DNA of 7,522 nucleotides, taken from assembly GCA_946644025.1 (NCBI GenBank), contig CAMPCG010000137.1, forward strand, positions 1 through 7,522, written 5' to 3'. The position numbers and the translations under genes were made by a program. The notes beneath the pieces are model-generated. The model ran no database searches. It saw only the letters and a program-made list of their open reading frames with translations, and was not told the origin of the DNA. This document shows positions 2,975-7,469 of this stretch, in pieces. The DNA comes from an uncultured Prevotellaceae bacterium (GTDB lineage: Bacteria > Bacteroidota > Bacteroidia > Bacteroidales > Bacteroidaceae). Positions within the stretch are counted from its first letter, which is position 1; the number at the start of each line of letters is the position of its first letter.

Positions 2975-3986
2975 CATTCGCCGCCTTGCTGATGAAGAAA
3001 ATCAAGGCAGTGTTTATAATAAAGAGCGAAACGATACCTACGACAACGACTACCCACAAAGGCCACTTCGTAAGGATTGCTGTGCCGATGAGCGAGACAA
3101 ACAGCCACATCCCGTAGTTATGGTAGAGGTAGATGGTGAAGATGTGGCGGTTCCAGAAATCCACTATTCTTGGAAATGGGAGGCGGAAGTTCCCTGCAAT
3201 CAGTGATAAAGCGCTTAGGCTGACGATGCCAAAGAGCATGAATAGCGTGGAGGGAGGAAATTTCTCTAACTGGAAGTCCGGAAGCCGGCCCTTGCTTAGA
3301 ATGACAAGCAGCAGGGCCGAGACAGCCAGGATGATTACGGTCGTGCGGGTAGAAACGCGGCGATAACAGACAAAACCAGCCACAAAGAAAACATTGTAGC
3401 AAAAGATGTAGAGAGAGGTCATGCAGATTATCTGCCAGACACTTACAATGCCCTCATAGCGAGGAAAGCCTGTCAAGTGGTAGGCCAAATCGGTGCAGAC
3501 CATCATCGCCGCCGCCAAGAGCAAGTAGGCAAGTCCCCATTTCTCGGCCAGGCGACGCTGAAAATGAAACGAAACAGAGATAACCAGATAGGGGGCTATA
3601 AACCAAAGGTGCATGGCGTATGGCAGTCCGGGAATCTCCCTTGCCAGCAATATTTTCAGGAAATCGCGCAGACTGAAGGAGGAAGGGGCTAAGTCCCACA
3701 AAAATATGATGAGCAGCGACAAAGCGGCATAGACGTAATAGGGTAACAGCACCCTTTGGCAGCGGTTACTCAACGTTTCCCAGAAGCGTTTTGGGCGTGA
3801 CAGCCTTGCAGAAGCCCCCGACACAAAGAATATGACAGGCATCTCGACGAGAATGAGCGAGGTGGCGGCCGAGGTATATGGTAAGAACCAATAGACCAAA
3901 TGTACACAACAGGCAATGTACATCATGGTATAGCCTCGTATGGCATCGAGCCTTACGTCTCGCTTGGAACCTAATGCATAGTTCAT
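2895..3986 (-). CDS. Acyltransferase family 3 membrane protein
   Basis: The 363-residue product fits the acyltransferase-3 (OafA/NodX-like) family in length and layout, with about ten membrane segments. Near the N-terminus is R12-L-D14-A-I-R17-G, then H29 in the first membrane segment (CCVHLVYWF), which is the usual position of the family's catalytic histidine. FFVSGASARLSRPKRF at 53-68 and RVLLPYYVY at 78-86 match the family's second and third conserved blocks, and MHLWFIAPYLV at 125-135 and IYLYHN at 285-290 the later ones. Family members transfer acetyl or other acyl groups from a cytoplasmic donor onto a glycan at the membrane. The gene follows the LicD-type gene on the same strand after 69 bp and probably shares its transcript, which suggests decoration of the same glycan. 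Its 3' end overlaps the convergent membrane-protein gene by 80 bp. The specific acyl group and acceptor are unknown. Confidence 0.85.
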   Translation of the reverse strand: MNYALGSKRDVRLDAIRGYTMMYIACCVHLVYWFLPYTSAATSLILVEMPVIFFVSGASARLSRPKRFWETLSNRCQRVLLPYYVYAALSLLIIFLWDLAPSSFSLRDFLKILLAREIPGLPYAMHLWFIAPYLVISVSFHFQRRLAEKWGLAYLLLAAAMMVCTDLAYHLTGFPRYEGIVSVWQIICMTSLYIFCYNVFFVAGFVCYRRVSTRTTVIILAVSALLLVILSKGRLPDFQLEKFPPSTLFMLFGIVSLSALSLIAGNFRLPFPRIVDFWNRHIFTIYLYHNYGMWLFVSLIGTAILTKWPLWVVVVVGIVSLFIINTALIFFISKAANVIGFVKSKAVRSLSGLMRRGNKEMPG

Positions 3987-4984: not shown

Positions 4985-6115
4985 ATGCAGAACATCATCC
5001 ACATTGTCTCCAACCGTGAGTGGGGCGGCGGCGAGCAGTACGTGCTCGACCTGGCCAGCCGCCAGCGTGCCGACGGCATCGGCGTCACCGTGGTGTGCAA
5101 GCCCGTGGAGTCCATCCGCCGCAAGTACGACGAGGCCGGGCTGCGCGTGCTCACCATGCCGCTGGGCGGCGTGCTCGACGTACGTAGCGCCATCGCCCTC
5201 GCCCGTGAGGTCTCGTGCCTCTCGCCACCATTCCCGACGCGTCAGCGTCGGGCACCCCTCACCGTCATCCACGCCCATAACTTCAAGGATGCCTTCACTG
5301 CCTGCTATGCCCGCCGCCTGTCGAGGCGGAGCGATGTGCGGGTGGTGATGTGCCGCCACCTCACGCGCAAGGGCAAGAACACCCTGCCCTACCGCTGGCT
5401 CTACCGCGAGCTTGACTGCCTGTGTCTGGACTCGGAGGTGTCGCGCCGCGAGTTTCTCAGCACCCGTCCCTCCATCGACCCCCAGAAGCTGCGCATCGTC
5501 CACACGAGCATCGTCGTGCCGCGGGGGGTGGAGGCCGTCGACGTCCGCGGGCGTTTCGACATCCCCGCCGATGCCGTCATCGCCATGTTCCACGGCCGCC
5601 TCGACCCCGAGAAGGGGCTTGACGCCCTGCTCGAGGCAATGGCCCTGCTCAACGGCCACCTGCGGGGACCGCAGGAACTGCGCCTCGTCCTCGTAGGCCG
5701 CGGCAGCGATGAGTACACGGCCCACCTGGTGCAGAAGGCCGCCGAGCTGGGCATCACCGGCAGTGTCGTCTTCGCCGGGTTCCAGCACCCCGTGCTGCCC
5801 TGGGTGGCCGCTGCCGACGTCGGCGTGTTGGCCTCTACGGTGAGCGAGGGCTGTCCCCTGTCGCCGATGGAGTATATGTCTCAGGGTCGTCCCGTCGTCG
5901 TGACCAACAACGGCGGGCAGTGCGAGTATGTCGCCGACGGCAGCAACGGGCTCCTCGTGACCCCCGGCGACGTCGAGGCGCTGGCCCGTGCACTCAGCAG
6001 CCTGGCTGCCGACCCTGCCCTGCGCCAACGGCTGGGCCATCAGGCCAGGGCCGACTTCGACGACCACCTGAACTACGACCACTTCTACCAACAGATAAAC
6101 GCCATCTACCAATGA
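4985..6115 (+). CDS. GT4-type (GT-B fold) glycosyltransferase
   Basis: The 376-residue product is of normal length for family GT4. The N-terminal domain starts MQNIIHIVSN, has the acceptor-side glycine loop G14-G-G-E-Q18, and the strand VIHAHN at 94-99. The C-terminal domain has FHGRLDPEKGLDALLEA at 202-218, typical of nucleotide-sugar binding, and the retaining E-x7-E motif at E288 and E296 (EGCPLSPME), followed by GRPVVVTNNGGQCEYV. It would transfer a sugar from a nucleotide donor to a growing surface glycan in the cytoplasm. Residues 80-90 (SPPFPTRQRRA) are encoded by a palindromic repeat element and form an extra basic loop between the helix ending near 76 and the VIHAHN strand; reading frame and downstream motifs are intact. 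The stop overlaps the start of the barrel-protein gene (ATGA). Sugar and acceptor cannot be inferred. Confidence 0.93.
   Translation: MQNIIHIVSNREWGGGEQYVLDLASRQRADGIGVTVVCKPVESIRRKYDEAGLRVLTMPLGGVLDVRSAIALAREVSCLSPPFPTRQRRAPLTVIHAHNFKDAFTACYARRLSRRSDVRVVMCRHLTRKGKNTLPYRWLYRELDCLCLDSEVSRREFLSTRPSIDPQKLRIVHTSIVVPRGVEAVDVRGRFDIPADAVIAMFHGRLDPEKGLDALLEAMALLNGHLRGPQELRLVLVGRGSDEYTAHLVQKAAELGITGSVVFAGFQHPVLPWVAAADVGVLASTVSEGCPLSPMEYMSQGRPVVVTNNGGQCEYVADGSNGLLVTPGDVEALARALSSLAADPALRQRLGHQARADFDDHLNYDHFYQQINAIYQ
5224..5254. repeat. Palindromic element copy 1, inside the GT4 gene
   Basis: A 31-bp block whose core is CCCGACGC (5233-5240), loop GTCA (5241-5244), GCGTCGGG (5245-5252): a perfect 8-bp stem with a 4-nt loop. 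The preceding nine bases (5224-5232, GCCACCATT) and the two following bases also match a second copy at 6463-6493. The two copies agree at 29 of 31 positions, and both differences lie at paired stem positions. Here it is read as SPPFPTRQRRA. It looks like a small dispersed palindromic element accepted in frame in a loop. Confidence 0.8.
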
Positions 6116-7035
6116 AGCGCTCACCCCAAAATTGTAACGCCTCTTACGCTGCAATTCTATTGCAGCACAGCCTCGCTCTCGTCGTCCTCTTCCTGGCCAT
6201 GACGGCGCGCGCCGAGCTGCGCCCCGCCCGCAGCGTGGGCAGTGTGGGCGCCGAGATAGGCGTAGGCACCGAGGGTTTCCGCCTGGGCCTCGGCATGGGC
6301 CTCACGCCCTTCATCGAGATTGACGTGGGCCTGAACTACATGCCGGCCATCACCATCAGCGGCAACATGCACTTCCGTAACAGCTCCATCACCATCCCCC
6401 CGTCCCCCCCTCCCTCGGCCCCCGCCCCCTCGGCCCCCGCCCCCGACGCCCCCGCCCCCTCGGCCACCATTCCCGATGCGTCAGCATCGGGCAAGACCTA
6501 CCACCTGAACACCGTCCGCGTGGAGGGCAAGTTCGACCGCCTCACCTTCGACGCCAAGCTCTACCTCTACCCCTTCGGCTCGGCGGCCAGCTTCTTCTTG
6601 GTCGGCGGCGTGTCGGCGGGCGGCGGACGCCTGGCTTGGCTCAACGGACACAGCGACGAGGCACAGCGCATCTACGAGGAGAACCGCGAGTACTTCGACC
6701 AGCAGATAGGCCAGTACGAGGACATGGTGGAGGCCGTGGTGGGCAAGACGGCCCTCTCGCTGGCCAAGAACGGAAACGTGGCGGGTGAGGTGCGCGTGCC
6801 CAAGGTGCGGCCCTACGTGGGGCTGGGCTTCGGCCGCATGGTCACCGACGACGGCGTCGGCGCTCGCCTGGAGGCCGGCGTGGAGTTCACTGGCAAGCTG
6901 AAGGTGTACCAGGGCAACATAGAGGTGGACTACCAGGACTATCTGGAGCGTGCCGACAACAACCTGGCCAAGCTCATGGACCGCATGAGAGTCTACCCCG
7001 TGCTGAAACTCACCCTCACAGGCCGACTCTTTTAG
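6112..7035 (+). CDS. Outer-membrane beta-barrel protein with Pro-rich loop
   Basis: The 307-residue product starts at the ATG overlapping the GT4 stop (ATGA); this start gives an N-terminal signal peptide with a hydrophobic core at about 20-31 and an ARA motif at 32-34, so cleavage before E35 is likely. The mature part alternates glycine-rich amphipathic strands (VGAEIGVGTEGFRLGLGMG, then FIEIDVGLNYM, FDAKLYLYPF, FFLVGGVSAGGG, RPYVGLGFGR, GARLEAGVEFTGK) and ends in LKLTLTGRLF with a terminal aromatic residue, as outer-membrane barrels do. Between two strands lies a low-complexity stretch at 96-128, partly four PSAPA-type pentapeptides (101-120) and partly a palindromic repeat element (118-128). 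A charged, probably helical segment (about 161-219) sits between later strands. I recognise no named family; a porin-like or surface structural role is inference. Translational coupling to a glycosyltransferase suggests linked expression. Confidence 0.75.
   Translation: MKRSPQNCNASYAAILLQHSLALVVLFLAMTARAELRPARSVGSVGAEIGVGTEGFRLGLGMGLTPFIEIDVGLNYMPAITISGNMHFRNSSITIPPSPPPSAPAPSAPAPDAPAPSATIPDASASGKTYHLNTVRVEGKFDRLTFDAKLYLYPFGSAASFFLVGGVSAGGGRLAWLNGHSDEAQRIYEENREYFDQQIGQYEDMVEAVVGKTALSLAKNGNVAGEVRVPKVRPYVGLGFGRMVTDDGVGARLEAGVEFTGKLKVYQGNIEVDYQDYLERADNNLAKLMDRMRVYPVLKLTLTGRLF
6412..6471 (+). repeat. Four 15-bp tandem units encoding PSAPA-like pentapeptides
   Basis: Units start at 6412, 6427, 6442 and 6457. 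The first two are identical (CCCTCGGCCCCCGCC), the third changes TCG to GAC, and the fourth has diverged at its end. They encode PSAPA, PSAPA, PDAPA and PSATI in the barrel gene. The last unit runs directly into the palindromic element. Just upstream are runs of six and seven C (6396-6401, 6404-6410). A 15-bp unit allows loop length to change without breaking the frame. Confidence 0.8.
6463..6493. repeat. Palindromic element copy 2, inside the barrel-protein gene
   Basis: Second copy of the 31-bp element seen at 5224-5254. Stem CCCGATGC (6472-6479), loop GTCA (6480-6483), GCATCGGG (6484-6491). Compared with copy 1 the left arm has T instead of C and the right arm has A instead of G at the partner base, so the stem stays perfect. 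It is read in a different frame from copy 1, giving ATIPDASASGK at residues 118-128, in the presumed loop of the barrel. Confidence 0.8.
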
Positions 7036-7104: not shown

Positions 7105-7136
7105 ATTATTTTCCGAAAAGTTGAAATACCGAAGCT

Positions 7137-7226
7137 GTTTTTACAAACACCGTCGGTGTTTGTAAAAACGCTGTCGGCGTTTATACAAACGTCGTCGACG
7201 TTTATACAAACGCCGACGACGTTTGT
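7137..7226. repeat. Array of four 17-bp dyads at an exact 21-bp period
   Basis: Units at 7145-7161 (AAACACCGTCGGTGTTT), 7166-7182 (AAACGCTGTCGGCGTTT), 7187-7203 (AAACGTCGTCGACGTTT) and 7208-7224 (AAACGCCGACGACGTTT). Each has the form AAAC-N3-core-N3-GTTT; units 1 and 3 have perfect 7-bp arms, and units 2 and 4 have one mismatch each. Starts are exactly 21 bp apart, with 4-bp linkers GTAA, ATAC and ATAC. The core is GTC in units 1-3 and GAC in unit 4, so unit 4 is in the opposite orientation. Unit 1 extends to a perfect 15-bp-arm palindrome (7137-7169). This is the layout of a multimeric protein-binding site or a structured DNA/RNA element; its function is unknown. Confidence 0.85.
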
Positions 7227-7232
7227 AGATTG

Positions 7233-7289
7233 CCCCGGCTCTTTCTGCGTTTAATATACGGGCAAAGACAACCTTTCCCCGGCTCTTTC
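7233..7289. repeat. 13-bp direct repeat pair
   Basis: CCCCGGCTCTTTC occurs at 7233-7245 and again at 7277-7289, 44 bp apart start to start. Both copies lie between the dyad array and the 35-bp tandem repeats. The sequence between them is AT-richer and has no recognised feature. It could be a decayed target or duplication footprint, or a pair of binding sites; nothing decides between these. Confidence 0.6.
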
Positions 7290-7329: not shown

Positions 7330-7469
7330 AATCCGTTTAATCGGTTTAATCCGTTGTCAGAAGAAATCCGTTTAATCGGTTTAATCCGTGCAATCGGTTT
7401 AATCCGTTGTCAGAAGAAATCCGTTTAATCGGTTTAATCCGTTGTCAGAAGAAATCCGTTTAATCGGTT
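7330..7469. repeat. Tandem 35-bp repeats made of alternating 9-mers
   Basis: Unit structure: AATCCGTTT, AATCGGTTT, AATCCG, then TTGTCAGAAGA (35 bp). Full units are 7330-7364 and 7418-7452. The unit at 7365-7417 is 53 bp because it holds an extra 18-bp pair of 9-mers, joined by TGC instead of TTT. A truncated copy begins at 7453 and stops at about 7468, next to the ATG at 7470. CCG and CGG strictly alternate, so neighbouring 9-mers can pair as short stems. Units are contiguous with no unique spacers, so this is not a CRISPR array. Confidence 0.85.

Follow-up and report, generated by a model that had tools for sequence, protein, structure and literature searches.

The 7,522-nt window analyzed here, i.e., positions 1 to 7,522 of contig CAMPCG010000137.1 (assembly GCA_946644025.1, uncultured Prevotellaceae bacterium), contains two almost identical hairpin-forming blocks in adjacent genes. 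These blocks are very probably copies of a small dispersed element of gut Prevotella, similar to the repetitive extragenic palindromes (REP) and the Rickettsia palindromic elements (RPE). The family unit comprises about 29 nt and consists of a 9-nt tag, GCCAC(C/T)NNK, followed by a hairpin whose 8-bp stem encloses a loop of 4 nt. The conserved feature of this element is a nucleic-acid structure and not a peptide.

The 31-nt blocks at 5224-5254 and 6463-6493 are identical at 29 of 31 positions, and both mismatches are stem partners (C/T at element position 15 and G/A at position 24 of the predicted 8-bp stem), in agreement with the original prediction. Copy 1 is located on the forward strand at 5224..5252, with the tag at 5224-5232 (GCCACCATT) and the hairpin at 5233-5252 (CCCGACGC-GTCA-GCGTCGGG). 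Copy 2, on the same strand, extends over 6463..6491 (tag 6463-6471; hairpin 6472-6491, CCCGATGC-GTCA-GCATCGGG). The folding energy as single-stranded DNA was −11.2 kcal/mol (z −4.84) for copy 1 and −10.0 kcal/mol (z −4.71) for copy 2. When up to 3 mismatches were allowed, the pattern of the 20-nt hairpin matched the window twice, compared to a mean of 0.01 in shuffled sequences, and two matches were reached by 0 of 200 shuffles. For the search in other genomes the covariance model R1 was built from the seed alignment A1, which holds 64 rows (63 of the 66 distinct copies and window copy 2) and omits L009 and L025 (weak tags) as well as L027 (letters identical to window copy 2). Copy 1 reached 50.8 bits with R1 and copy 2 49.4 bits. 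Both are intragenic: copy 1 lies one base off the usual reading phase (s1) and encodes (S)PPFPTRQRRA inside a glycosyltransferase, an enzyme assignment confirmed by Pfam, and copy 2 lies in the usual phase (s0) of the adjoining gene, where ATIPDASASG of the predicted segment ATIPDASASGK is read.

All copy counts given in the following were determined in genomes other than that of the window organism. An exact scan with one genome per species resulted in 36 stretches, of which 20 are from Prevotella, Prevotellaceae or Bacteroidaceae records, many of them labelled as rumen or other gut samples, 1 is from another Bacteroidetes bacterium and 15 are from elsewhere. The bases CCAC at tag positions 2-5 were present in 16 of 23 copies from the Prevotella, Prevotellaceae and Bacteroidaceae records vs. 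0 of 16 copies from all others. Since the 5′ tag is confined to this group, the exact matches in other records are probably due to chance. With one mismatch and any loop allowed, matches were found in 16 of 16 chosen genomes, with forward counts of up to 25 and counts of 0-2 for the reversed pattern. R1 (E ≤ 0.01) detected 1-63 copies in 23 chosen Prevotella-type genomes; the three richest, with sizes of 2.4, 3.0 and 4.9 Mb, include counts of 63, 26 and 19. Under stricter filters (at most 18 candidates scored per genome), at least one copy was found in 16 of 399 genomes of the reference genome's family. The tagged pattern with up to 3 mismatches was identified in 19 of 150 genus genomes including the reference (reversed control 0), and across the phylum in 1 of 395 genomes, namely the reference itself. 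Further copies in related genomes were thus recovered by the covariance-model search, and the case of a window pair with no other copies did not occur. Element-type sequences were also seen in 20 viral-contig stretches (L280-L299), often antisense within open frames.

Next, the stem was analyzed for covariation, whereby identical rows were collapsed for all pair counts. In the R1 set (132 distinct rows) 94.9% of the pair cells were standard, and 83 cells were changed on both sides compared to 18.2 in shuffled alignments. Slid controls to this set were paired in only 34-51%. Because R1 rewards pairing, the search was repeated with a sequence-only model, which resulted in 118 distinct rows with 95.7% paired cells and 55 cells changed on both sides vs. 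11.3 in the shuffled data. Pair 15-24 was found to be Watson-Crick in 66 of 77 distinct main-phase rows, where 37.8 were expected and 0 of 20,000 shuffles reached 66. In the main-phase copies, base 24 of the stem falls on the third position of a codon with fourfold degeneracy, and the peptide therefore cannot be the cause of the covariation at this synonymous position. The compensation proposed in the original prediction was accordingly detected in the R1 set, in the sequence-only set and at the synonymous codon position. G-U cells were frequent at pair 14-25 (32 in the R1 set), which fits folding of the tagged strand.

For the distribution over genes, 175 model hits were reduced to 170 copies by removal of repeats based on their context, and the gene status was assigned by a crude codon-usage score in the fetched loci. 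The comparison of positions inside and outside genes scored 91 of the 170 copies as intragenic, with 80, 4, 4 and 3 copies in the phases s0, s1, s2 and a2, respectively (88 sense, 3 antisense). About 20 copies would be expected in the main phase s0 if they were distributed evenly over the stop-free frames. The skew persists at stricter thresholds and without the richest genome (57 to 2). The peptide read in the main phase is ATxPxxSxSG, and all 13 same-strand copy spacings below 120 nt are multiples of 3. A Pfam family was matched above the cut-off by 18 of 19 chosen host proteins, with the copy inside the matched stretch in 9 of the 19. Among the hosts are ClpB, glutamate synthase, NAD-dependent DNA ligase, sigma-54, UDP-GlcNAc 2-epimerase, pullulanase, a DegT aminotransferase and a MutY-like glycosylase (HhH-GPD plus NUDIX_4).

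The common phase of 80 of the 91 intragenic copies, the small, polar and linker-like peptide and the codon spacing kept in clusters could also be explained at the peptide level, if a favoured flexible linker ATxPxxSxSG had arisen or been duplicated repeatedly and the likeness of the DNA followed from coding. This explanation is highly improbable. The main phase is used neither by window copy 1 nor by 10 further copies, which are in another phase or antisense, and there is covariation between a synonymous third base and its partner in the stem. The third base is C in 76 of 77 rows at codon 1 and likewise in 76 of 77 at codon 4, whereas GCC accounts for only 58% of the Ala codons and CCC for 48% of the Pro codons in the host open reading frames (ORFs). 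The serine at codon 7 is encoded by TCA in 55 of 66 rows, compared to 10.6% of the Ser codons in the host ORFs. In addition, copies scored as noncoding are paired as well as intragenic ones (0.961 in 16 countable copies of 17 vs. 0.955). The covariation at the synonymous site, the near-fixed third bases and the noncoding pairing exclude the peptide as the sole cause.

The first host gene of the window (4985..6115, forward strand) encodes a GT4-type glycosyltransferase of 376 amino acids according to Pfam. The second (6112..7035, forward strand) encodes a protein of 307 amino acids with no Pfam match of its own; PF13505, an outer-membrane beta-barrel family, is present in 3 of the 105 proteins listed for this gene, its own entry included. 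The genes overlap through the sequence ATGA at 6112-6115, the start codon of gene 2 lying over the stop codon of gene 1. The window has a GC content of 57%, and the named relatives of its proteins are Prevotella or Prevotellaceae (most listed proteins are nameless).

For the orthologue alignment 45 of 120 listed relatives of the glycosyltransferase and 21 of 105 listed for gene 2 were used. The glycosyltransferase segment is absent from 44 of the 45 aligned relatives; the sole carrier is 99% identical, the others 64-79%. In gene 2, a Pro/Ala/Ser-rich segment of 22 codons with repeats of about 15 nt (6397..6462, forward strand) is located directly 5′ of copy 2. This stretch is variable in the two closest relatives, where ATIPDASASG is kept behind it, and the other 18 of 20 aligned orthologues are without both. 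Hence, outside the closest relatives the segments are missing and are not encoded by other codons. The AlphaFold2 model of the glycosyltransferase has a mean predicted local distance difference test (pLDDT) value of 91.1. The insert (residues 80-90, approximately) is placed between the helix 66-79 and the strand 93-97, and residues 81-90 form the block of lowest pLDDT in the chain (63). This low confidence is partly due to the relatives in the model's alignment, which are without the insert.

The strong hairpin and the sense bias (88 vs. 3 antisense among the intragenic-scored copies) would also be in line with a functional RNA, i.e., a hairpin kept for a role in the transcript, such as stability, pausing or regulation, and not for mobility. 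We regard this as improbable, since the host genes are unrelated and their orthologues in relatives manage without the element. Furthermore, the stem sequence varies between and within genomes, copies are also found antisense, between genes and in viral contigs, and a search of the window against Rfam revealed no family matching the element.

Five further sites were compared to relatives at the DNA level. In ClpB, the carrier is 18 nt longer than most of 16 relatives; two relatives are 3 nt shorter than the rest, and one of the 16 has its own palindrome at this position. Three carriers of the pullulanase gene are 18 nt longer than 10 of 11 relatives, the remaining one having its own insert. 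At site 1 of a pyridine-nucleotide oxidoreductase gene, the difference to two insert-free relatives is +18 nt in the genomes G010 and G014 and +30 nt in G013, and most other relatives hold different inserts. Site 2 of this gene is extended by 18 nt in G010 and G013 and by 30 nt in G014. In glutamate synthase, G249 is 18 nt and G004 21 nt longer than the five nearest relatives; remoter relatives are shorter, one with its own insert. A constant change of +18 nt is ruled out by the carriers with +21 and +30 nt. The net gain of 18 nt indicates that about 12 nt of the old loop were lost in the simplest carriers. The in-frame placement in loops that had been proposed was observed, and at these five sites part of the old loop was replaced, so that the insertion is not a clean one.

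In-frame low-complexity repeats were seen in the same loops of element-free relatives (P0005, P0009 and P0012 for the glycosyltransferase; L266, L303 and L367 elsewhere), which makes the loops look like hotspots for insertions in general. The ClpB locus L234 of another genome holds two copies of a tagless hairpin, CCCAGCGGTTCTGCCGCTGGG, at 2830-2850 and 3106-3126, one of them occupying the same ClpB loop as the element in G249.

These other low-complexity or palindromic inserts could point to growth in place: template switching or slippage would enlarge loops that hold short, GC-rich quasi-palindromes, and the tags in common would be the result of gene conversion between sites. The net +18 nt seen at all five sites in the simplest carriers, the 12-nt expansion of the hairpin region at one oxidoreductase site (G013 compared to G010 and G014) and the old loop, which is ADG for pullulanase and QDG for some relatives of ClpB, fit this explanation as well. 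However, the tag and the loop are common to unrelated loci and genomes, and 8 of 57 copies examined in one genome are identical across 29 nt. Growth in place is thus considered unlikely, yet it is the alternative with the most weight of the three discussed here.

The best-known case of in-frame palindromic insertions is Rickettsia (PMC3767692). The RPEs are palindromes located within ORFs without loss of the frame, the encoded segments are solvent-exposed, and at nearly the same site one orthologue can carry another RPE group than the next (PMC3767692). The element described here resembles them, RPE-4, -6 and -7 in particular, in being a palindromic repeat in frame in unrelated genes, with element-free orthologues and an insert in an exposed loop, the loop position being taken from one structure model. 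In contrast, RPEs generally have a length of 100-150 bp (PMC3767692) compared to 29-30 nt here, and the present hosts are of the Prevotella type and not Rickettsia or Wolbachia. The likeness is one of behavior, and the present element has the GCCAC tag.

REPs with GTAG or CGTC tags have a length of 20-40 bp and are mostly intergenic (PMC3733652), and in-frame intragenic REPs were described in O. terrae, R. conorii and Thauera, with DNA ligase among the host genes (PMC3733652). With a stem of 8 bp and a loop of 4 nt, the element is within the 8-9 bp and 4-5 nt of the CGTC REPs, which also have an unpaired tag at one end (PMC3733652), but the unpaired CGTC end itself is lacking in alignment A1 and in the copy contexts. 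The 5′ foot GCCAC(C/T)NNK differs from GT[AG]G, and GGTGGC is restricted to the 3′ side of the opposite strand. Unlike both REP classes, the element has no fixed 3′ tail, one dominant codon phase and 91 of 170 copies scored as intragenic. It differs from the GTAG REPs also in that no copies flank a gene of a REP-associated tyrosine transposase (RAYT) as in a REPtron, based on 30 PF01797 and 30 long-RAYT loci. RAYT subclass 2.4, which is abundant in Bacteroidetes, has in-frame REPs between the HuH and Y motifs (PMC6006769), to which the in-frame hairpins between the HUH and Tyr motifs of long RAYT-like genes found here may be comparable; its REPs are GT[AG]G-footed and gene-flanking (PMC6006769), whereas the present element is neither. 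In summary of these features, the behavior is that of an intragenic REP or RPE, the tags are neither those of GTAG nor of CGTC REPs, and the hosts are not RPE hosts. The Rickettsia precedent named in the original prediction is appropriate, with the qualification that in-frame REPs within genes are also described outside Rickettsia, RAYT genes of this Bacteroidetes-rich subclass included (PMC3733652, PMC6006769). Among the matches listed in the openly licensed literature without preprints, no title or abstract start dealt with a palindrome inside genes of Prevotella or Bacteroidota beyond the cited REP and RAYT papers.

For a dispersed element of this kind, copies may be made from single-stranded DNA, with hairpin and tag recognized by an enzyme acting in trans. 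The most likely candidate for this enzyme, put forward tentatively, would be a HUH endonuclease of the RAYT/TnpA-REP type. The copies would land or survive mainly in exposed loops, where a few old codons are replaced, and those causing a frameshift or impairing the protein would be purged, such that the benign ATxPxxSxSG reading remains.

RAYT-like HUH enzymes are candidate mobilizers, and mobilization by a RAYT is plausible. Long RAYT-like proteins, with a HUH motif, a tyrosine motif and an extra C-terminal part, are common in these genomes. Between the HUH and Tyr motifs of one such gene, which is from a near-complete genome and matches Y1_Tnp with 21.9 bits (under the cut-off), two R1 copies are found together with a degenerate 27-nt array. 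The long RAYT-like gene of a second genome has an R1-type hairpin in the same loop with an R1 E-value of only 0.16, and three members of the R1-bearing clade lack any hairpin of at least 7 bp. Stems of at least 8 bp were found in 16 of 24 parsed long-RAYT loops compared to 0 of 24 stretches before and 0 of 24 after them; 6 of the 30 loci gave no ORF parsable by the motif search. Other RAYT clades carry other clade-specific perfect in-frame hairpins in the same loop (L314, L316, L319-L325, L332 and others). One of these loop hairpins, TGTTGCNRYNNNRYNGCAACA, belongs to the TGTTGC...GCAACA type and is itself a dispersed repeat, present in 17 of 25 genomes (control 0). Of its 13 fetched copies, 12 are in open frames of more than 150 codons, 8 have a codon score above 5, and 3 are inside RAYT genes themselves. 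The RAYT loop may, on the other hand, simply be tolerant of hairpins. The Pfam family Y1_Tnp was rejected as proof of a transposase link, as 26 of 36 genomes match it, element-positive and element-free alike. Hairpins of the type CCCAGGGC-NNN-GCCCTGGG were observed near short Y1-transposase genes (L206, L208 and L229), in L206 and L208 on both sides of the gene in a classical REPtron-like arrangement.

Several results weigh against a mobile, structure-conserved element. For the sequence-only set, the number of stem pairs ever changing on both sides does not exceed that of shuffled data (3 vs. 2.5; 236 of 500), and 13 further pair types compare to 10.8 in shuffled data (38 of 500); in the R1 set, 5 stem pairs change on both sides vs. 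3.1. The covariation is confined to three to five of the eight pairs, the changes being in a few inner ones. The shuffle controls ignore relatedness, and the copies were collected by similarity. A total of 79 of the 170 copies were not scored as intragenic (48 edge, 10 between/edge, 17 apparently noncoding, 4 undecided). A count by eye showed agreement of the two flanks on the favoured frame for roughly half of the edge rows. Sites in glutamate synthase and pullulanase are shared, which suggests that some copies have been inherited vertically. A clean 30-nt insertion with target-site duplication was searched for at the five DNA-level sites and not found, and no transposition event was seen in the sites compared. 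Of the selfish or structural element originally proposed, the structural part is supported by covariation, and selfish movement is inferred.

The results for the enzyme are to be weighed in the same way. At 30 short- and long-Y1 (PF01797) loci no flanking copy was found within about 1.5 kb, not even at E ≤ 0.5. The 30 long-RAYT loci, some genes of which belong to both sets, showed no flanking copy at E ≤ 0.01 and only the internal copies of one gene, all other hits having E-values of 0.047-0.39. The long-RAYT profile was found in 19 of 20 element-positive genomes but also in 10 of 16 pattern-negative ones, a weak association (Fisher p = 0.03), pattern-negative meaning no match to one tagged pattern with up to 3 mismatches. 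The richest genome, with 63 copies, holds one long-RAYT locus.

A wider and more speculative reading, which we consider doubtful, is that rumen Prevotella carry parallel families of tiny hairpins (GCCAC-tagged, TGTTGC...GCAACA and others), each tied to a RAYT-like HUH clade with a matching in-frame hairpin. Such families would be specialized for life inside proteins by swapping a loop, with a net +18 nt in the simplest case, in the phase of a harmless linker, and genes would be their main habitat. Irrespective of the enzyme, in-frame palindromic repeats in core enzymes of gut bacteria make the copying and tolerance of short hairpins testable in another phylum. New protein loops arise from the element in a way that can be measured, and its presence matters when rumen bacteria are annotated and their structures predicted.

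Outside the two host genes, the window shows dense AT-rich palindromes at 7124-7227, just 3′ of gene 2, with arms of up to 32 nt and unlike the element. Weak Rfam miRNA matches at 7125-7242, also outside the element, are far under the gathering scores. Finally, three 52-nt direct repeats starting with AATCCGTTTAATCGGTTTAATCCG are located at 7330-7469.

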